A stretch of DNA of 64,000 nt, from assembly GCF_001937195.1 (NCBI RefSeq), contig NZ_MSDO01000001.1, positions 248,001-312,000 on the forward strand. The letters run 5' to 3'. Of this stretch, positions 27,184 through 54,446 are shown in pieces. The notes beneath the pieces are model-generated. The model had not been told where the DNA came from. It saw only the letters and a list, made by a program, of their open reading frames with translations, and did not search any database. Numbering within the stretch: position 1 is the first letter of the stretch; each line of letters opens with the position of its first letter. The translations under genes and the position numbers were made by a program. Origin of the DNA: Salinicola socius. Lineage in GTDB: Bacteria > Pseudomonadota > Gammaproteobacteria > Pseudomonadales > Halomonadaceae.

Positions 27184-27233
27184 GATCGCGCCTGATTTTC
27201 AGATCGTGCCTGACCTTCAGATCGTGCTCAGGG
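27184..27233. repeat. 18-bp tandem repeat, about 2.7 units
   Basis: Units start at 27184, 27202 and 27220 with consensus GATCGTGCCTGACCTTCA. The last unit overlaps the 3' end of the diguanylate cyclase gene. Confidence 0.7.
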
Positions 27234-28812
27234 CCTCGTAAAAGCGCCAGGTATTGCGCCCGGCGCGTTTGGAGGCGTACATCGCCATGTCGGAGAACTG
27301 CACGGCCTGGCTGACGTCATCGGTGTCCAGACCCAGCATGGCGACACCGATGCTGACACCAATGGCGATATCGATATTGTCCTCGACCTTCAACGGTACC
27401 CGCAGGCGGTCGAGGAATCGCGCCAGAACGATCTCGACATCGGCACGCTGATCGCACCCTTCGAGCAGCACCACGAACTCGTCGCCGCCCAGGCGAGCCA
27501 CGTAGTCCCGCTGTCGCATCAGATCCGCCAGAATGGCGCCGACATGACTCAGCACCAGATCTCCGACCTGGTGGCCATAAGTATCGTTGATGCGCTTGAA
27601 GTGATCGAAATCCAGCGTGATCAATGCATGGCAGCGTTCGGGATAGAGACGGTGGTGGCGCGCCATCACCGCCAGACGGTGATCGAAACCGCGACGGTTG
27701 CCCAGTCCGGTCAAGGGGTCGGTCATCGCCATCCGTTCGGCGGCATCCGCGGCTCTCTTGCGCTCGGTAACGTCGTGCGCAACCCCTTGCAGCCGTCCGG
27801 TCTCGAGCGGGCTCAGGATCAGGCTGACCCAGCGCTGCTGATCGCCATTCTCCAGCGCCACTTCCCACTGCCGTTCGTGCCCGCCGGCGTCATCGTCGAT
27901 CAAGAAGGGCCCAGCCATGCCCTCACCCTCGCTCACCAGCGATGCGAACGCGACCGGGTGACTTTCCAGATCCATCTCGCCCGAGATGTCGAACAGGCGC
28001 CGGAAGGCCGGATTGGCGGATCGGATCAGGCCGGCACCGTCGAGCTCGAAAATACCGGCTTCCACGTTGTCAAAGATCGCCCGGTAACGGCGCTCCTCGA
28101 CTTCCCGCTCGAGCCGTAGCCGGCGCTCCTCGCTGAGACTCTGGACCAGGTTGTCGATCATGGCGTTGACGCTGATGACGAGCTGACCGATCTCGTCATC
28201 GCGGTTGCCCTTGGGCGCCTGTAGCTGCTGGCCGGTCTCCGCCTCCAGTTCGCTCAAGCGATGCGAAAGCCCGGTGATCGGCCGCGTGACGAACTTCACC
28301 ACTACCAGCACGACACAGAAGCCGATGCCTATCAGCTGCAGCAGCAAGGCGCCGCCGATGAAGTTCGAGGCCTGCGCCACGAGCGTGTCGATATAGGCCT
28401 GGTTGGGCTCGATCGTGATTCGGCAGACCGGCGTCTGCGGCTCGAACGGCGAGGCAACGTCTCGGGTGACCCGTGTGACACCGGGGGCGATCTGACCGGC
28501 TCGGCCACTCGCCAGCGTGGTGCCATCGGCGGACTCGATGCTTACGGCGTTGACGATATTGTTGCTGAGCAGACCGTCGGTGACCTCCTGCGCCAAATGG
28601 CGATCGCCGAGGAAGCAACCGACCTGGGCGGTACGCTCCACCGTCGTCAGCAGCTCCTGGATACGCGACTGCTGCTCCTGCTGGACGCTCTCCGCCCGCA
28701 GGTAGACGGCCAGCGACAGGAACACCACGCCCAGCAGCGTGACGATGAGCAGAATGATCGCCGTGGTGCGCAGCGCCAGCCGTGTGTGCAGCAGCAGCAA
28801 TAGGCGAGGCAT
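27217..28812 (-). CDS. Membrane diguanylate cyclase with periplasmic sensor (module 1)
   Basis: 531 residues. Order: membrane segment ~17-37; periplasmic domain ~38-151 with two cysteines (C66, C130); second membrane segment ~152-174; HAMP ~175-228; PAS ~240-350; GGDEF domain ~360-525. The active-site GGDEF is intact at 442-446, and the inhibitory-site pattern RxxD (R433-D436) lies five residues upstream, so the protein should make c-di-GMP with product feedback. It is the last gene of a unit with the outer-membrane barrel and the PBP-like protein, only 4 bp after the latter's stop. The signal is presumably received in the periplasm, perhaps from that protein (inference). Confidence 0.93.
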   Translation of the reverse strand: MPRLLLLLHTRLALRTTAIILLIVTLLGVVFLSLAVYLRAESVQQEQQSRIQELLTTVERTAQVGCFLGDRHLAQEVTDGLLSNNIVNAVSIESADGTTLASGRAGQIAPGVTRVTRDVASPFEPQTPVCRITIEPNQAYIDTLVAQASNFIGGALLLQLIGIGFCVVLVVVKFVTRPITGLSHRLSELEAETGQQLQAPKGNRDDEIGQLVISVNAMIDNLVQSLSEERRLRLEREVEERRYRAIFDNVEAGIFELDGAGLIRSANPAFRRLFDISGEMDLESHPVAFASLVSEGEGMAGPFLIDDDAGGHERQWEVALENGDQQRWVSLILSPLETGRLQGVAHDVTERKRAADAAERMAMTDPLTGLGNRRGFDHRLAVMARHHRLYPERCHALITLDFDHFKRINDTYGHQVGDLVLSHVGAILADLMRQRDYVARLGGDEFVVLLEGCDQRADVEIVLARFLDRLRVPLKVEDNIDIAIGVSIGVAMLGLDTDDVSQAVQFSDMAMYASKRAGRNTWRFYEALSTI

Positions 28813-28816
28813 GCGA

Positions 28817-29245
28817 TTACTCGCCCAACATCAGTACGACATGCATGTCGTCGGGTACGTTGGCGCCATCGACATAGCTCAAGGCGTTCATGTTCTGGAT
28901 CACGAGTTGATGCACGTCATCGCTCGAGGCGATCTGCTGTGGCGGCGACGCCTCGCCGGAAAACACCAGCCTGGCCCAGTAGGAGTTGATCTCCGCCAGA
29001 TCCTTGTTGACCAGCGCACGGTAGAAGCGCGCCTTGAGCGAAGACGAATCCACCGGCAGCGCGACGTTACCCGTGGGCAGCTTGCGGTAGCGGCCCATGA
29101 AGATATTGACCGCATCGCTCCGGGTCAGTTGGTCGATGCCGCTGCCGGCATTGACCACGATCGCGATGTCGGCACTGGCCGACGAGGTGATCAGCGTGGT
29201 GACGGTCAGGGTTGAGGCAAGTAGAAGCCTTCGGACTCGGTTCAT
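28817..29245 (-). CDS. Small phosphate-binding-like periplasmic protein (module 1)
   Basis: 142 residues from the ATG after AGGATAG. A signal peptide (MNRVRRLLLASTLTVTTLITSSASA) precedes a fragment of the PstS/PBP-like fold: VVNAGSGIDQLTRSDAVNIFMGRYRKLPTGN, then FYRALVNKDLAEINSYWARLVFSGEASPPQ, then LSYVDG. At about half the size of PstS it is unlikely to be a full transport receptor, and no ABC permease is nearby. The same pattern and length recur at 54018. It lies 10 bp from the barrel gene and 4 bp before the cyclase, so a sensory role for c-di-GMP control is likely (inference). Confidence 0.83.
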   Translation of the reverse strand: MNRVRRLLLASTLTVTTLITSSASADIAIVVNAGSGIDQLTRSDAVNIFMGRYRKLPTGNVALPVDSSSLKARFYRALVNKDLAEINSYWARLVFSGEASPPQQIASSDDVHQLVIQNMNALSYVDGANVPDDMHVVLMLGE

Positions 29246-29255
29246 GGACGCTATC

Positions 29256-30446
29256 CTAGAAAATGAAGTCCAGACCGAGGCTGAAGATCGATCCCCAGCC
29301 CCCGTTCCAGTCACTATCGATGTCTCGCCACAGAAATCCGGGGCGCTGAATATGAACGCGGTCCAGCTGTGCCTTCAAGGCCATGTTGGCCGTGACATCA
29401 TAGCGCGCACCCACCGAATAGGTCCGTTGCTTGAAGTCGCCCTCGCTGCCGCCCTCGCCATCGGACGTCGTCTCGACCTCCGAATAGACCAGATAGGGCG
29501 TGACACGATCGATACGATAGCCCGCCGAGACGAATCCCGAATCGACGGCACCTTCCGCGCTGGTCTTGCTGCGATTCCACATCGCCTGCAGCTGCAGGGG
29601 CCCCTGATCGTAGACTGCGCCCAGCGAGTAAAGCCGGACCCGGTCGAAACCGAAGGCATCGCCCAGCACGTCGTCGGCGGTCAGGCTGAAAAAGGGATTG
29701 AACGCGCGGATCTGATCGAACTGAGCGTCGAGCTGCTCTGGAACATCCCCCGAAAAGGTAATGTCGGATTCGACCTCAGTGTAACCCACGCGGAATCGCC
29801 ACGGCCCGGTCTCGTAATCGAGATGCCCGCCGTAGACCTTGTCGACGTCGAAATGGGCCTCGATGCCTTTCCCGATGAAGACATCGCTGTCGGAACGCCC
29901 CGTGTAAAGCTTCAGCAGCAGCAGATCGCTGCCGACCGGTTGCTTGAAAGTGACATCGGCCCCATCGATATAGGTCAGCTGCAGGGTGCCGAAATGATCC
30001 ACCGGCGGTCGTACCCAGGGGTAGGCGTAGCCGACATAGCGTGAGTCGGAGAGCTGATAGACATCCCAGCCGAGGCGGCCGACGCGCAGCTGCACACCCG
30101 GATCTGGTCGATAGCGCAGGAACGCCCAGCTCACTTCCGGACTGAAATCGCCGCTGTCGTGGTAGCGGCTGATGCCCTGCACCACGGTGTCGAGCCGATC
30201 GGTGAAGCGATAGCCGACCTGCGCGCCCAACAGCGAGTCGGTGCGCGCGCTCCAGCCCTCGCCGGCGCCCTTGGGCTGACTGATGTCGCGGGTAAAATCC
30301 GCCTCGTCGAGGTTGTTGTGGATCAGCCCCAACGTGCCGAACCCGCTGAACGTCAACCGCCCATCATCGGTCAGGGGGCGCGCCTCGGCGATGCCGCTCA
30401 GCGCCGCCATGGCCAGCCCCGCACAGACCGGTAGTAATCGTCTCAT
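29256..30446 (-). CDS. Outer-membrane beta-barrel protein (module 1)
   Basis: 396 residues, preceded by CGGAGAT. A signal peptide ends near ALSGIAEA; the mature protein is made of alternating amphipathic strands with many aromatic residues and ends in Phe (SLGLDFIF), the usual outer-membrane insertion signal. Early GRLTFSGFGTLGLIHNN resembles porin-like or DcaP-like barrels, but I cannot assign a specificity. It is the first gene of the three-gene unit with the PBP-like protein and diguanylate cyclase; a barrel of similar size is in the second module at 52832. Confidence 0.85.
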   Translation of the reverse strand: MRRLLPVCAGLAMAALSGIAEARPLTDDGRLTFSGFGTLGLIHNNLDEADFTRDISQPKGAGEGWSARTDSLLGAQVGYRFTDRLDTVVQGISRYHDSGDFSPEVSWAFLRYRPDPGVQLRVGRLGWDVYQLSDSRYVGYAYPWVRPPVDHFGTLQLTYIDGADVTFKQPVGSDLLLLKLYTGRSDSDVFIGKGIEAHFDVDKVYGGHLDYETGPWRFRVGYTEVESDITFSGDVPEQLDAQFDQIRAFNPFFSLTADDVLGDAFGFDRVRLYSLGAVYDQGPLQLQAMWNRSKTSAEGAVDSGFVSAGYRIDRVTPYLVYSEVETTSDGEGGSEGDFKQRTYSVGARYDVTANMALKAQLDRVHIQRPGFLWRDIDSDWNGGWGSIFSLGLDFIF

Positions 30447-49201: not shown

Positions 49202-50056
49202 TCAACGAAAATCGCCAAGCTGGGTGTTTCCTCCCTCGCGAGCATACTGCGCTTTCAAATCATCCCGTAGTGCCTCATAGAGCGGGCGAACGGTATTGCT
49301 AAGTTCTACCTCAGCTCGCTGCTGATTGATGTAGAAAGCCGCTCTCAGTCCTAGAAGCTCTACCGTCGGGCTTACTTGTTCGAAGCGCAGGCCGACACGC
49401 GCCAACAAGCGTTGGAAACGCGGCTCAATCATTGCCAACACGTGATAACGTTCCGAAATCCCACTCAATGCCGTTGCGCACAGGTTGAGAGCGACGCCTG
49501 TCATGAAGAAATCTTGACGATCATGCTGACCAAAGACCCAGCGCTCCAGCTCGGTCGCAAGCGATTCATCCTTACCGCCAGATCGAAAAAAACGAGGAAT
49601 AGCAACGCGTGAAATCTCGCATAGGCTTTCCCTGTTAATTTCATTGAGATCAAGATTGATCGCCACGCCAAGATCACGACAATGTTTTTCGACAGGTAGT
49701 GTCGAAATCCTGCCAGTAAAATCATTCCCCATGACGACGCGCAAGCAGCCTATCGCCAGTCCCGTGTTACGGTGTTCTACCAGACAGTGAAGAGAGTTAG
49801 CGTCAAACGCATCCTGTTCCAGGCGATCCGTCAGGTCGAGCGAAAAAAAACCTAACTCTTCGCAGAAAACACGATGCCTAAGAGTAAAAACCCTCGCTCT
49901 GTCGTGATCATTTGTCGCCAACAGAAATTTGAAGTTCCTCAAAAATTCAGCGTTTGGCGTCTCGCTATTTCGACATCGCTCATACGCCGCTGAACTTTCA
50001 TCCAATCCCAACTTCTGTGGCCGGCTGAGGCCTTCCCAAATAGAATCCCTGCACAT
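49202..50056 (-). CDS. FeeM/exosortase-associated-type acyltransferase (module 2)
   Basis: About 284 residues. The start is uncertain: this ATG overlaps the upstream gene by 59 bp and has no SD, while a TTG at 50005 overlaps the upstream stop and would give LDESSAAYERC. The core reads FLLATNDHDRARVFTLRHRVFCEELGFFSLDLTDRLEQDAFDANSLHCLVEH, then AIGCLRVVMG, ICEISRVAIPRFFR and ALNLCATALSGISERYHVLAMIEP. This is the GNAT-like fold shared by N-acyl amino acid synthases, PEP-CTERM/exosortase-associated acyltransferases and LuxI-type autoinducer synthases. No exosortase is nearby. Overlap with the GGDEF-EAL gene implies translational coupling. Product unknown. Confidence 0.75.
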   Translation of the reverse strand: MCRDSIWEGLSRPQKLGLDESSAAYERCRNSETPNAEFLRNFKFLLATNDHDRARVFTLRHRVFCEELGFFSLDLTDRLEQDAFDANSLHCLVEHRNTGLAIGCLRVVMGNDFTGRISTLPVEKHCRDLGVAINLDLNEINRESLCEISRVAIPRFFRSGGKDESLATELERWVFGQHDRQDFFMTGVALNLCATALSGISERYHVLAMIEPRFQRLLARVGLRFEQVSPTVELLGLRAAFYINQQRAEVELSNTVRPLYEALRDDLKAQYAREGGNTQLGDFR

Positions 50057-52799
50057 AGTCAATATTGTATTTTCTTAAATATGGTAGTATGGAGGGCTTG
50101 TCGACAAATTCTGCCACCGTTTTCTTACCCAATCCCTTGGCAATGTCGGCAATCGCCCTGACGATAAGCTGATTTTCTGCACTATCTGGAAGCGTCGTGA
50201 TGAACGAGCCGTCAATTTTAATATAATCAGAGGGTAGTTGGCCAAGATAGTAAAAACTGCTGAACCCGACTCCAAAATCATCCAATGCCACCTGACACCC
50301 CAGGCGCCGAATATCCTCGAGAACCCCTCTCGCGGAGGTAAAGTCAGTTACGGCAGCCGTTTCCGTGACTTCTACAATCAGGCGACGAGGCTCGACCCCT
50401 CGCTTGCCAAATTCAGACTCCATGAAAGGCACTAACTCCTTGTCTTGCAAAGACTGCCCAGAAAGATTGATAGCAAGACTTATCGAACCGTCAGTAAATT
50501 TCGAGATGAGCTCAATCCCTTTCGCTACCACCCAACGGTCGATTGCTGCGATTTGGCCGTTTCGCTCAGCAATGGGAATGAAGGCGCCCGGAGAGAGATA
50601 CTCGCCATCGTCGCCTCTCAATCTTAGCAGCGCCTCATAATGTTGGATGTTGAAATCTATCAACCTAAAGATGGGTTGTAGCATTAGCTCGAACTGATCA
50701 TACAATAGCGCGCTTCGTATTCTCTCGGCCCAGAAAACCCGCTGCTTCAGCTCTTCACGATCCTGCTGATCAGGTTGTAGTAGATGCCAACGTTTCGCCA
50801 TATCCGCTTTGGCTTTGTACATGGCATAGTCTGCATTAGCCATCAGCTCGTCAGGACGATCACCGTGATCGGGATAGGCCGCAATACCGATACTCGCGCT
50901 GGCTCTATGTGTCCGCCCATGAATATGGACACTTTGCTGATCCAGGTGGTCAACTATCTTTCTCGCTAGATCGACAGCGGTGTCGGTGGACGTGTGCTCC
51001 ATTAGAACCGCAAATTCGTCCCCACCAAGGCGAGCCACGATAGATCCATGACTCAGCCCAGATAGCGTAGAGGCAACCGCTCGCAGTAGTTGATCGCCGG
51101 TTTGATGCCCACTCAGCTCATTGACGTCCTTGAAACGATCTAGATCCAGGTAAAGTACAGCGCCAAAAGCGCCAGTGACGACGGCTCGTTGGAGGGCTTC
51201 TTCGAAAAAACGACGGTTATAAAGTTCTGTCAGTGGGTCTCTGTTGGCTAGCCAGGCAAGGCGGCTTTCCGCCAGCTTGCGCTCAGTGATATCGACGCCG
51301 ACAGAAATCAACTCTTGGCAGTTTTCATCAATTCTGAGTGGCGTATGATACCAGACAATCGTTCTAACAATGCCATCCACCGCCATAAAATGGCTTTCCT
51401 GCTGCCCACCAATACTCAAAAACTCATCGGCATTAAAAAAGTCGGTCGAGAACAGTTGTTGAAAAGTGCGCTGCTGCAAAGCTTCATCGCTTAGGCCAGT
51501 AATAGCCTGGCAAAGATGGTTCGTCAGCGTAATACGTCCGTCGCGCCGGTGCGTCAGTACCAGGACCTGTGCGGTATTCATCAGACCTCTGATAAAATCC
51601 CTTTCTCTTGCGAGTTCTTTAACCCTGGCTTCGAGCTGCACCCCACGTTTACCAACCTCACTTTCCAAACTTTCAAGCTTGACTTCAAGTTCCACCGCTG
51701 TCGTTTCCAGCGCATCAATTTCATCGACAAACAAGGATTTTCTTGCCTTTATACTGCGCCGCATCACGTTATATTCGCGCTCGGCTAGCAGAGGTAGTTT
51801 TCGGCTGATTTCTCTCAGACGGCCCATACGATAACGCAGAATGAGATAAAGCAAGATTTCCGCCGCCGCCCAACCTATGAGAGAGATCGTAAGAATGGCT
51901 TGTGTCGTCTTCGCTATCTCCTTGAGCTGATTCGTTACGTCTGAAATCAACAAAAAATAACTAGGAGACCGGTCATCGCTTCCCGTGCCCAAGGCAATAG
52001 AAGCAACCTCGTATTTTCTACCGCCATCGTTATAACTCAAGGATTTCCCTTGAGTCGCTGAAAAATCGAATTGCTGAGATAGCTTCTTAATAAAAGGGAA
52101 AACCGTAGACTCATGAGTCAATGCGGCCAAATATGCGCCCCATCGTGGAAGATAACGTCCTTCCACCGAAGATTTACCTGAATTGACAAGTAAAGCCACC
52201 TCGCTACCCGAACTCTTTTGTAAATAGCGGGTAATATCTGCCAATGATCTGGAAATCATAACGACACCTGCGTCCACACCTTGTGCAAGGATAGGAACGG
52301 CTACATACTGCTGACAGGCTTCAACACACAGTAGTCTGTCACTGGGCTTCTCGTTACTCAAAACTCCCTCTATCCACTCTTTGCTATCCACTCGAGACGA
52401 AAACTCCAACTTCCGTCCCATCGCCACAATGGGAGTTAGATTTCGGTTATAAACGACAATATCGTCGATCCCAACATCAAGCTGCAAAGTCGGCCATAGG
52501 GCTTTTATGATTGCTTCGACACCGGCTTCGTTATGATTCAGAAGTGCATGCCCCAGATCTTCCGAAGATGCGATCATGCCGGCCATTTGCCTCATGACAT
52601 CAGCAGACCGCTGTATATTAAAACTGACTTCTTGGCTCTGATTACTATAAAATTCGTCCCGGGATTGCTGAAACTGGCTCATCAAAGAATGATTGCTCAC
52701 CCATACTATCAGGCTGGTCAGTGCCAGCAACAGCAAGCTCGTTAGCAGCATCGCTCGCCACTTTAGGTCTAAACGAAAACTCCTTCCCTTTGCGTGCAT
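49998..52799 (-). CDS. Membrane GGDEF-EAL c-di-GMP enzyme (module 2)
   Basis: About 933 residues; a GTG 24 bp upstream is an alternative start. Order: membrane segment ~16-38; large periplasmic dCache-like sensor ~39-298 with C158 and C162; membrane segment ~300-323; coiled coil ~360-405; PAS ~405-510; GGDEF domain with intact GGDEF at 592-596 but no RxxD inhibitory site upstream; EAL domain from ~690 with EAL at 722-724, DDFGVGFSS and KIDGSF, and AEFVD where AEGVE is usual. Both synthase and phosphodiesterase activity look possible. The gene is AT-richer than its flanks (50% G+C in one 60-bp line against 60% in tartrate dehydrogenase). Confidence 0.92.
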   Translation of the reverse strand: MHAKGRSFRLDLKWRAMLLTSLLLLALTSLIVWVSNHSLMSQFQQSRDEFYSNQSQEVSFNIQRSADVMRQMAGMIASSEDLGHALLNHNEAGVEAIIKALWPTLQLDVGIDDIVVYNRNLTPIVAMGRKLEFSSRVDSKEWIEGVLSNEKPSDRLLCVEACQQYVAVPILAQGVDAGVVMISRSLADITRYLQKSSGSEVALLVNSGKSSVEGRYLPRWGAYLAALTHESTVFPFIKKLSQQFDFSATQGKSLSYNDGGRKYEVASIALGTGSDDRSPSYFLLISDVTNQLKEIAKTTQAILTISLIGWAAAEILLYLILRYRMGRLREISRKLPLLAEREYNVMRRSIKARKSLFVDEIDALETTAVELEVKLESLESEVGKRGVQLEARVKELARERDFIRGLMNTAQVLVLTHRRDGRITLTNHLCQAITGLSDEALQQRTFQQLFSTDFFNADEFLSIGGQQESHFMAVDGIVRTIVWYHTPLRIDENCQELISVGVDITERKLAESRLAWLANRDPLTELYNRRFFEEALQRAVVTGAFGAVLYLDLDRFKDVNELSGHQTGDQLLRAVASTLSGLSHGSIVARLGGDEFAVLMEHTSTDTAVDLARKIVDHLDQQSVHIHGRTHRASASIGIAAYPDHGDRPDELMANADYAMYKAKADMAKRWHLLQPDQQDREELKQRVFWAERIRSALLYDQFELMLQPIFRLIDFNIQHYEALLRLRGDDGEYLSPGAFIPIAERNGQIAAIDRWVVAKGIELISKFTDGSISLAINLSGQSLQDKELVPFMESEFGKRGVEPRRLIVEVTETAAVTDFTSARGVLEDIRRLGCQVALDDFGVGFSSFYYLGQLPSDYIKIDGSFITTLPDSAENQLIVRAIADIAKGLGKKTVAEFVDKPSILPYLRKYNIDYVQGFYLGRPQPATEVGIG

Positions 52800-52831
52800 C
52801 TGAGTACGCCCTGAAGTGATCACCCATCCAT

Positions 52832-54025
52832 TTAAAACAAATAAGAAACCTGAAAAAGAAGCATATTCCAGTATTTTTCCTGCGTACTAACTTCTGACAC
52901 GTCCTGAAACGGTACCCAGCCAGTCCCTTCGATATTGTGGAATTCCGTAGAAATCAAAAAACGAGAATATGGCTGCCATTGCAATCCAGCAGTCCAGTCT
53001 TTTGCGTACCTTGTATAAGCAGGCCTCCCCGTTCTTTCCTCATAGTCTCGTCCAGAACGATCTGCTCTATTTGTCACCAGCGAGTCATATCTTAACAGCC
53101 ACTGCCAATCAGCGCTTAGGCGACGAGTAAACTGGACATACCAACTCTCGCCTGTCGCTTCGTAATTATAGGGGTCTGAGAACCCACTTGACCTGACGTG
53201 ACGGAGAGCATACTCACTCGTCAAAGACCAGTTTTCTCTATTGTATTGAAAAGAGAATATCCAAGGTTGAAACGAAAAGTTTCCTGATCCCGGGCCAGAC
53301 GGTTTGGAATCCAGGCCAGCGTTGACGTCGGCGTAAGTCATCGCCAAGATGATGCCTCCACCGCCATGTTCATAGCGTAGCTGTCCAATATAAGAGGTCT
53401 TACCAGAATAATCTCCTAAATCGTCCCTGCCCCAGGCCGATATTTCGGATTGCTTGTCCATACGAGGTTTGCCAGCACCCACCTGCAGTCTTAAAACACC
53501 GTCCTTCAGTGGTTTTTCAAGATAGCTAGTCAATCCATCGGCAGATAACGCGGGCTTGCGTGTGCGATCAAAGTAAATCGACTGCGGCAGCAAAATACTG
53601 GGACGAGTAATGGCAATATCACGAGTCTGATTATAGAGACCTAACGGATTCTTGAATCGCCCCACTTGCACTCCTGCTGTCATATCGGCGTCACTATAAA
53701 ACTGGTAATCGATGACACCATAATCCAGCTCTACGTCGTTTAACTGTTGTATATCTCCTGCTTGTCTGGCAAGAAGCTGCCCCGCCACTAGCACATTGCT
53801 CAATGGCCGAACAGAAGCGTTAAGCCCTAATTCGGTATATTCCAGGCTGCCGCCTTTCTCACTACTAGGACCGAAGAAGTCATTGTGGTCAGTCACGATG
53901 AGTGCCTGGCTCATGAAGCCATGAACCTGAAAGGTATCCGACATTTCCACGGCATGAGCGTTTGCCGCGAGCATCAGGGATATCGCCGCTTGAGCTGCGA
54001 TCGAGAACGGTTTCAGTTTATTCAA
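52832..54025 (-). CDS. Outer-membrane porin-like protein (module 2)
   Basis: 397 residues. A signal peptide (MNKLKPFSIAAQAAISLMLAANAHAVE) precedes alternating amphipathic strands ending in Phe (LLFQVSYLF). QVHGFMSQALIVTDHNDFFG and QVGRFKNPLGLYNQTRDIA are typical of porin-like barrels related to DcaP/OprP-type proteins, though specificity cannot be assigned. It overlaps the preceding PBP-like gene by 8 bp and is followed by the GGDEF-EAL gene after a few bases, so the three are cotranscribed. It corresponds in role, not close sequence, to the barrel at 29256. Confidence 0.87.
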   Translation of the reverse strand: MNKLKPFSIAAQAAISLMLAANAHAVEMSDTFQVHGFMSQALIVTDHNDFFGPSSEKGGSLEYTELGLNASVRPLSNVLVAGQLLARQAGDIQQLNDVELDYGVIDYQFYSDADMTAGVQVGRFKNPLGLYNQTRDIAITRPSILLPQSIYFDRTRKPALSADGLTSYLEKPLKDGVLRLQVGAGKPRMDKQSEISAWGRDDLGDYSGKTSYIGQLRYEHGGGGIILAMTYADVNAGLDSKPSGPGSGNFSFQPWIFSFQYNRENWSLTSEYALRHVRSSGFSDPYNYEATGESWYVQFTRRLSADWQWLLRYDSLVTNRADRSGRDYEERTGRPAYTRYAKDWTAGLQWQPYSRFLISTEFHNIEGTGWVPFQDVSEVSTQEKYWNMLLFQVSYLF

Positions 54026-54446
54026 TGTCGAGCACCCGCACTTGATCCGTCAGGCTTGTTTGTTTGATGTATCCAACGCTGCCAGGCGTCGAGGCAACGG
54101 CCTCGAGCATTTCGGTTTCGTCGTCGACCTCATTGGGCGCTTGCCCGGTGCCCGAGAACACGGCGCGGTCCCAGGCCAGTCGAAGCTGGTGAGGGTAGAC
54201 CCCAAGTATTTTCTTGGAGAAAGCTTCGTGAATCGGATTGTCGTCGGGCAACACGAAAACGTGGACGGCCTGGCCGTCGGGAAGCGTTCTCTGTCGCATC
54301 GCGAATATGGCTCTAAGCGTTTCGAGCGGCAGGGAGGACTGTTGCACGGTCAGGTTGGCAATGATGGCAGGCGCGAGCTCATCGCCCCGACTGTCGAGTG
54401 AAACGAAGGAGAGTAGCGACAGACATCCGATCAACGCCCATCGCAT
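54018..54446 (-). CDS. Small phosphate-binding-like periplasmic protein (module 2)
   Basis: 142 residues from the ATG after AGGGGGCG; earlier in-frame codons lack similarity. A short signal peptide (MRWALIGCLSLLSFVSLDSRGDE) precedes a PBP-like half domain: LPLETLRAIFAMRQRTLPDGQAVHVFVLPDD, FSKKILGVYPHQLRLAWDRAVFSGTGQAPNE and PGSVGYIKQTSLTDQVRVLDIE. Length and the spaced motifs IF-M-R-LP-G, W-x(3-4)-VFSG and gY match the protein at 28817. First gene of the module 2 operon, overlapping the barrel gene by 8 bp. Likely a periplasmic signal protein (inference). Confidence 0.82.
   Translation of the reverse strand: MRWALIGCLSLLSFVSLDSRGDELAPAIIANLTVQQSSLPLETLRAIFAMRQRTLPDGQAVHVFVLPDDNPIHEAFSKKILGVYPHQLRLAWDRAVFSGTGQAPNEVDDETEMLEAVASTPGSVGYIKQTSLTDQVRVLDIE

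Follow-up and report, generated by a model that had tools for sequence, protein, structure and literature searches.

A candidate four-part envelope-to-c-di-GMP signaling operon in Salinicola socius that encodes an acyltransferase and a half-size periplasmic binding protein

The window analyzed here is the whole stretch of 64,000 nt from Salinicola socius contig NZ_MSDO01000001.1, and all coordinates are counted from its position 1. On the minus strand, the list of open reading frames (ORFs) and domain searches revealed an operon with the gene order periplasmic binding protein (PBP)-like gene, outer-membrane barrel, dCache_3-GGDEF-EAL enzyme and acyltransferase. We refer to it as module 2, and to a related three-gene set elsewhere in the window as module 1. 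Judged from its sequence, module 2 very probably encodes a four-part unit that works like VpvABC of Vibrio cholerae, signaling from the cell envelope to cyclic di-GMP (c-di-GMP), here through the dCache sensor. In Halomonadaceae the acyltransferase, here also called the synthase, belongs integrally to the unit, and in other families it is often found with it.

The PBP-like gene (54018..54446, minus strand) encodes 142 amino acids from its own ATG, and its ORF overlaps by 8 nt that of the barrel (52832..54025, minus strand), a porin-like protein of 397 amino acids with about 16 strands according to its structure model and Foldseek. The ORF of the membrane-bound enzyme (49998..52823, minus strand, 941 amino acids) follows after a gap of 8 nt, which becomes 32 nt if translation begins at the ATG at 52799, the probable start judged from the starts of relatives. 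The acyltransferase gene (49202..50056, minus strand) overlaps the 3' end of the enzyme gene and is the last in the operon. The original prediction described PBP, barrel and enzyme as one operon with an 8-bp overlap and then a short gap, in the order PBP-barrel-enzyme as opposed to barrel-PBP-enzyme in module 1. ORF positions and lengths agree with this for all three genes; the fourth gene had been overlooked. No known c-di-GMP riboswitch was found ahead of the operon, and Rfam models at gathering scores and a tRNA search gave no matches in the window. A search for related loci returned 11, of which eight were from Salinicola, with identities of 80-82% in S. salarius, S. acroporae and S. corii.

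The enzyme was found to contain dCache_3 (E 4.5e-20), GGDEF (4e-39) and EAL (8e-67) domains in Pfam. The dCache_3 sensor domain comprises residues 59-297 (51933..52649, minus strand, computed from the Pfam match); hydrophobic segments on either side (residues 22-48 and 309-329) flank it, and it is predicted to be periplasmic. The motifs GGDEF, EALLR and DDFG are present and RxxD is absent; both domains and the missing RxxD had been recognized before. Among 38 dCache enzymes, GGDEF and DDFG were each found in all 38, the strict motif E[AVG]L[LIVM]R in 30 and RxxD in nine. At one locus (L047, genome G031) the dCache-GGDEF-EAL enzyme appears as two ORFs of 596 and 299 amino acids, and the PBP, barrel and synthase ORFs have the usual length.

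At a threshold of 0.001 no Pfam family was found in the PBP-like protein or in the module 2 barrel. With E values up to 10, the PBP-like protein matched only PBP_like_2 (E 0.085, under the cut-off of this family), the other rows being weak and unrelated. A PDB search with the PBP sequence on its own gave nothing useful (best E 0.42); it took a profile of the family and the predicted fold to find similarity. The profile was similar to PstS (2e-11), and the model of the 142-residue protein matched 109 residues of chain 1twy_F (101-219 as numbered in the entry; the chain has 247 residues), with a TM-score by target length of 0.38-0.39 for 1twy chains. As modeled, the protein is a single PstS-type lobe behind a hydrophobic N-terminus with the second lobe absent, that is, a half-size PBP. 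The earlier label "PBP-like" is to be qualified in that one PstS lobe only is matched.

PstS closes two lobes on phosphate and binds the phosphate through the segment GSGTRDAF. The PBP-like protein has one lobe and does not conserve the segment, which aligns with variable positions of the PBP family and reads DNPIHEAF in the window protein. H73 falls at this position; it is a histidine in 29 of 31 PBPs of the clade to which module 2 belongs (clade I) and in none of 47 PBPs of the other clade. No ABC transporter gene is among the four genes of module 2.

The barrel model is of moderate confidence (mean pLDDT 69.5, pTM 0.72). It lists 17 strand elements, or 16 if the neighboring elements 204-208 and 211-220 are counted as one, and its listed Foldseek matches were porins, among them VhChiP (4.6e-11), Omp32 and DcaP.

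The acyltransferase is of the N-acyl amino acid synthase type. It matched TIGR03694 with 169.3 bits (cut-off 111.95), which places it in the acyltransferase family of the N-acyl amino acid synthases, as well as Acetyltransf_5 (46.9 bits) and Autoind_synth (PF00765; 24.7 bits, barely above the cut-off of 24). It is the sole TIGR03694 match in its genome. Residues R62, E82, D84, D87, R108, E149, S151 and R152 (numbered in the 286-residue reading) were invariant in all 34 acyltransferase rows and are presumably equal to the LuxI set. A profile of 16 acyltransferases found acyl-homoserine lactone synthases in the PDB (4.1e-7; eight sequences matched, FeeM not among them), and the FeeM Pfam profile PF21926 matched seven of 16 relatives but not the window protein at 1e-3. 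Module 2 resembles LuxI-type systems in its synthase, but no LuxR-type receptor is found among its four genes. The acyltransferase probably makes a lipid-like signal or a surfactant. Known links of N-acyl amino acid synthases are to PEP-CTERM and exosortase; in module 2 the synthase is tied to a c-di-GMP sensing operon, and no exosortase profile matched in the genome of S. socius.

We analyzed the inheritance of the synthase in 201 Halomonadaceae genomes, an even sample of a larger set. Counting strong hits only, 115 genomes had the synthase and 116 the clade-I PBP; 115 had both, none had the synthase alone and one (G060) had the PBP alone, the genomes being related, so that the 115 are not independent events, which the Fisher test on these counts does not take into account. 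At 1e-3 the matches rose to 122 for the synthase and 121 for the PBP; left out of the strong-hit count were seven genomes in which the synthase matched weakly (G060 and six others) and five with weak PBP matches. Synthase and PBP genes were located on the same contig and strand, 4016-4338 nt apart, in 111 of the 115 genomes and on different contigs in four. Three or more of these synthases were partial or fragmented. Neither a synthase match nor a strong PBP match was found in genomes G112, G178 and G182 of genus g10, G074 of g19 and G036 of g20, although these genera mostly have both. Exosortase was absent from all 201 genomes, with the same profile matching 84 of 274 genomes sampled from the class, and an exosortase-linked role of the acyltransferase was rejected for Halomonadaceae.

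Genome G060 carries its clade-I PBP together with a weak synthase match (5.4e-6). Its locus (L120) has a PBP and an enzyme of the usual length, a barrel of only 184 amino acids and the synthase reduced to this weak match, a case of partial module decay.

For the class sample of 274 genomes, thresholds were E at most 1e-15 for the synthase and at most 1e-10 for the PBP. The synthase was found in 35 genomes and the PBP in 40, of which 20 were placed in clade I. Twelve of these 20 had the synthase compared to 23 of the 254 others (Fisher 1.8e-7), and for all 40 PBP genomes the numbers were 15 compared to 20 of the 234 others (Fisher 9.7e-6), kinship being ignored in both tests. Exosortase was present in 22 of the 35 synthase genomes, and seven had neither exosortase nor a clade-I PBP.

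The four-gene set recurs, reordered, in other families. Regions for gene maps were chosen from 65 listed places, partly for having PBP and synthase on a common contig. All four genes were found at L102, L106 and L107, with the synthase divergent from PBP-barrel-enzyme; at L105, as synthase-PBP-barrel with the enzyme two ORFs away on the other strand; and at L108, as synthase-enzyme opposite PBP-barrel. L103 and L104 showed synthase-PBP-barrel up to the contig end, the PBP of L104 being taken from the class PBP search. Hence, the synthase adjoins the PBP gene in six of the seven loci outside Halomonadaceae that hold both (L102-L107) and the enzyme gene in one (L108). At L109-L119 the synthase was not beside the PBP; three of the genomes concerned (G360, G426 and G443) carry one on another contig.

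Module 1 (30446-27217) has the order barrel, PBP, GGDEF enzyme. Its barrel (29256..30446, minus strand, 396 amino acids) matches Porin_4 (1.1e-10), its PBP-like protein (28817..29245, minus strand) has 142 amino acids from its own ATG and is homologous to that of module 2, and its diguanylate cyclase (27217..28812, minus strand, 531 amino acids) has the Pfam domains HAMP, PAS and GGDEF with RxxD present as RQRD. The two PBP-like proteins were 23% identical over 94 columns in BLASTP (E 8e-8 as a single pair, 9.5e-4 in a whole-genome search), and the profile of each type found all tested members of the other (9 of 9 and 37 of 37), in agreement with the common length and spaced motifs previously pointed out. 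The two barrels gave an E of 0.73 in direct BLASTP, and reciprocal profiles reached no more than 2 of 9 and 11 of 37 barrels; an iterated profile joins both barrel types but may drift, so barrel homology is weakly supported. Between the two enzymes, alignment is confined to the region of GGDEF (E 1e-18), with dCache_3 as sensor in module 2 compared to HAMP and PAS in module 1. The strong difference between barrels and between sensor domains was thus correctly seen.

The relation between the modules was analyzed in a tree of 92 distinct PBPs. Their loci were matches of searches with PBP sequences and not a random sample, the barrels were called with the iterated profile, and the proteins are short, with 49 of 89 inner branches open. 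One branch with SH-aLRT 99 splits 45 rows from 47. The PBPs of the two modules fall on opposite sides of this split. The modules are thus separate lineages of old standing, whose barrels are distant too, and the tree rules out a recent duplication of module 1 as the origin of module 2. All 37 loci with a nearby dCache-GGDEF enzyme lie on the side of module 2 (clade I), where 44 loci are PBP-first and one is a tandem case with barrels on both sides. On the side of module 1 the order is mixed, with 31 loci barrel-first, nine PBP-first, three with barrels on both sides and four in which no barrel was found; the module 1 PBP itself sits in a group of eight barrel-PBP-GGDEF rows (SH-aLRT 99). A barrel adjoins 88 of the 92 PBPs. 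This and the clustering of the dCache loci support the original view of a functional linkage instead of a simple recent duplication. The description of module 2 as a second, rearranged copy is misleading, given the age of the lineages, their distant barrels and the earlier description of a system of this kind (VpvABC). A tandem form of module 1 was observed in genome G025 (L088:7669-12953), with barrel, PBP and GGDEF enzyme followed by another barrel and PBP.

Linkage was also assessed by mirror-tree analysis of 34 loci (28 for pairs with the synthase), with the catalytic part of the enzyme held constant in the partial correlations. Shared ancestry makes every pair correlate (raw r from 0.757 to 0.962), so this is weak evidence. 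PBP and sensor distances had a raw r of 0.829 and a partial r of 0.287 (Mantel p 0.002), a positive but modest answer to whether the two coevolve, as had been proposed for checking. The partial r was 0.400 for PBP and barrel (p 0.002), 0.212 for barrel and sensor (p 0.014), 0.371 for barrel and synthase (p 0.001) and 0.234 for sensor and synthase (p 0.005). These comparisons suggest, modestly, that the parts are linked.

VpvABC of V. cholerae is described as a porin, a periplasmic binding protein and a membrane-bound diguanylate cyclase; vpvAB is presented as a conserved sensing unit that occurs both on its own and together with vpvC, with which it may have been combined later, and the signal is given as unknown (PMC12456836). 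VpvA and VpvB are termed hypothetical in another paper (PMC8754643). Compared with the published description, module 1 matches VpvABC in composition and in the order porin, PBP, enzyme. Module 2 shares with it a porin-like barrel (VhChiP being the match of its moderate-confidence model) and a small PBP adjoining the barrel, but has the order PBP, porin, enzyme, a dCache-GGDEF-EAL enzyme instead of a diguanylate cyclase and, in addition, the acyltransferase gene. Because order and GGDEF-EAL differ, module 2 is not filed as a member, and we suggest by analogy that it works like VpvABC. Our PBP-family searches turned up no V. cholerae record, and the Vibrio and Photobacterium relatives found stand beside hybrid histidine kinases. 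Neither a fourth gene, a single-lobe fold nor kinase or chemoreceptor partners were found in the passages of the VpvABC description examined (PMC12456836). New compared to VpvABC are the single-lobe PBP, the integral synthase gene, the recurrence in other families and the kinase and chemoreceptor neighbors. No report of the four-gene set turned up in our searches of openly licensed literature.

In the NspS-MbaA polyamine sensor a periplasmic binding protein likewise acts on a GGDEF-EAL receptor, NspS being a PBP of full size with two lobes that is not known to have a porin of its own. Module 2 differs from this system (for MbaA, see PMC8079147) in its single lobe, its porin and its synthase.

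PBP-barrel pairs were also found beside transducers of other kinds. In three Vibrionaceae records, two of Vibrio and one of Photobacterium, such a pair lies beside a hybrid histidine kinase, on the same strand only in L125. At L119:2300-8345 a clade-I PBP and a barrel are followed, 23 nt behind the barrel, by a same-strand hybrid histidine kinase of 1402 amino acids with PAS, GAF, receiver and Hpt domains. At L085:7796-9878 a barrel-PBP pair is followed by a methyl-accepting chemotaxis protein whose ORF overlaps that of the PBP by 8 nt, which may be a variant of the sensing unit that serves chemotaxis, and at L054 the PBP-barrel pair is located ahead of a dCache-PAS protein. Downstream ORFs were rejected as candidate receptors at L059, where the ORF encodes an aminoacyl-tRNA synthetase, and at L116 and L118, where the kinases are not in line with the PBP-barrel pair. 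None of the enzymes searched for was found within a few ORFs in 45 of the 92 PBP loci. Genome G057 (L064-L076), from the same order, contained 14 PBP family matches, mostly PBP-barrel pairs without an adjoining c-di-GMP enzyme, and a plasmid of Alteromonas macleodii (L122:3465-6289) carries a PBP gene and a barrel-like ORF of 387 amino acids beside the type IV CRISPR genes csf2 and csf3.

In the mechanism we consider, the porin would let a small molecule in through the outer membrane or present it there, and the half-size PBP would dock on the dCache sensor and pass on its occupancy; it could not close around a ligand as PstS does because the second lobe is absent. The sensor would then shift the balance between c-di-GMP synthesis and breakdown. 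The synthase would most likely make either the cue or an output. We lean, tentatively, toward the acyltransferase product being a cue that is read by its own operon, because the synthase adjoins the PBP gene and not the enzyme gene in six of the seven non-Halomonadaceae loci with both. This would pair a LuxI-like synthase with a membrane-bound c-di-GMP receptor.

Several observations weigh against a self-made cue. The listed structural matches of the barrel (50 rows) are porins and not FadL-like lipid channels, and the PBP-synthase partial correlation was non-significant (r 0.094, p 0.188, 28 loci). In Halomonadaceae the synthase gene stands last, beside the enzyme gene, and the six family genomes without a strong PBP hit show weak synthase matches (2.6e-7 to 9.5e-5). 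In the class sample the synthase is missing from eight of the 20 genomes placed in PBP clade I. Of the 35 genomes that carry it, 23 are without a clade-I PBP, and 16 of these 23 have exosortase. The relatedness of the genomes makes the p values overstated. Nas343 and Nas354, reported as N-acyl amino acid synthases joined to a putative PilZ domain (PMC4897644), are a second tie between such synthases and c-di-GMP and suggest c-di-GMP control, i.e., an output. The same paper calls it not clear what part these synthases play in bacterial physiology.

Nearly as likely as the cue is that the signal comes from outside and the acyltransferase is the output, producing a surfactant or lipid of the N-acyl amino acid type that alters attachment to surfaces and is switched on by c-di-GMP made beside the acyltransferase or by co-expression. 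The final position of the synthase gene in the window operon, overlapping the enzyme gene, fits this, and the clade-I genomes without a synthase match indicate that the sensor can work without it. N-acyl tyrosines are reported to affect biofilms in PMC7293339, which also cites the synthase-exosortase link. Against an output, the window acyltransferase differs from Nas343 and Nas354 in that Pfam found no PilZ domain in it, and an output gene has no need to be placed beside the PBP gene, as the synthase is in six of the seven loci in other families.

It is rather unlikely that the porin and the half-size PBP handle the acyl product, in export or retention at the outer membrane, with the enzyme only timing the system. 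Barrel and synthase distances do correlate beyond those of the enzyme, and the synthase adjoins the PBP gene in other families. Yet at 61 of the 92 PBP loci the eight nearest ORFs do not include a synthase, and PBP loci beside kinases or a chemoreceptor argue for sensing.

A synthase that is merely a passenger, kept in synteny from one ancestor without a functional tie, is improbable. The kinship of the family genomes is in its favor, as the co-occurrence does not amount to 115 separate events. Against it are the genomes of g10, g19 and g20 with neither a synthase match nor a strong PBP match within genera otherwise having both, the synthase-PBP link kept through rearrangements in other families, and G060, where a short barrel goes with a weak synthase match; besides G060, none of the 201 family genomes has one gene without the other when strong hits are counted. 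Least probable of all is a sensor of phosphate or another anion delivered by an anion porin, which the PstS fold and the annotation of relatives as "phosphate ABC transporter substrate-binding protein" would suggest but which the single lobe, the unconserved GSGTRDAF segment and the histidine of clade I at its place speak against.

The tight pairing of a VpvABC-like unit with a synthase offers a testable candidate both for the role of these synthases and for the VpvABC signal. In a bolder and less likely reading, the pair of porin and half-size PBP would be a general, exchangeable input device, given that relatives adjoin kinases and a chemoreceptor. The single-lobe reading, if the model is right, changes the picture of the "periplasmic binding protein" in VpvABC-like systems.
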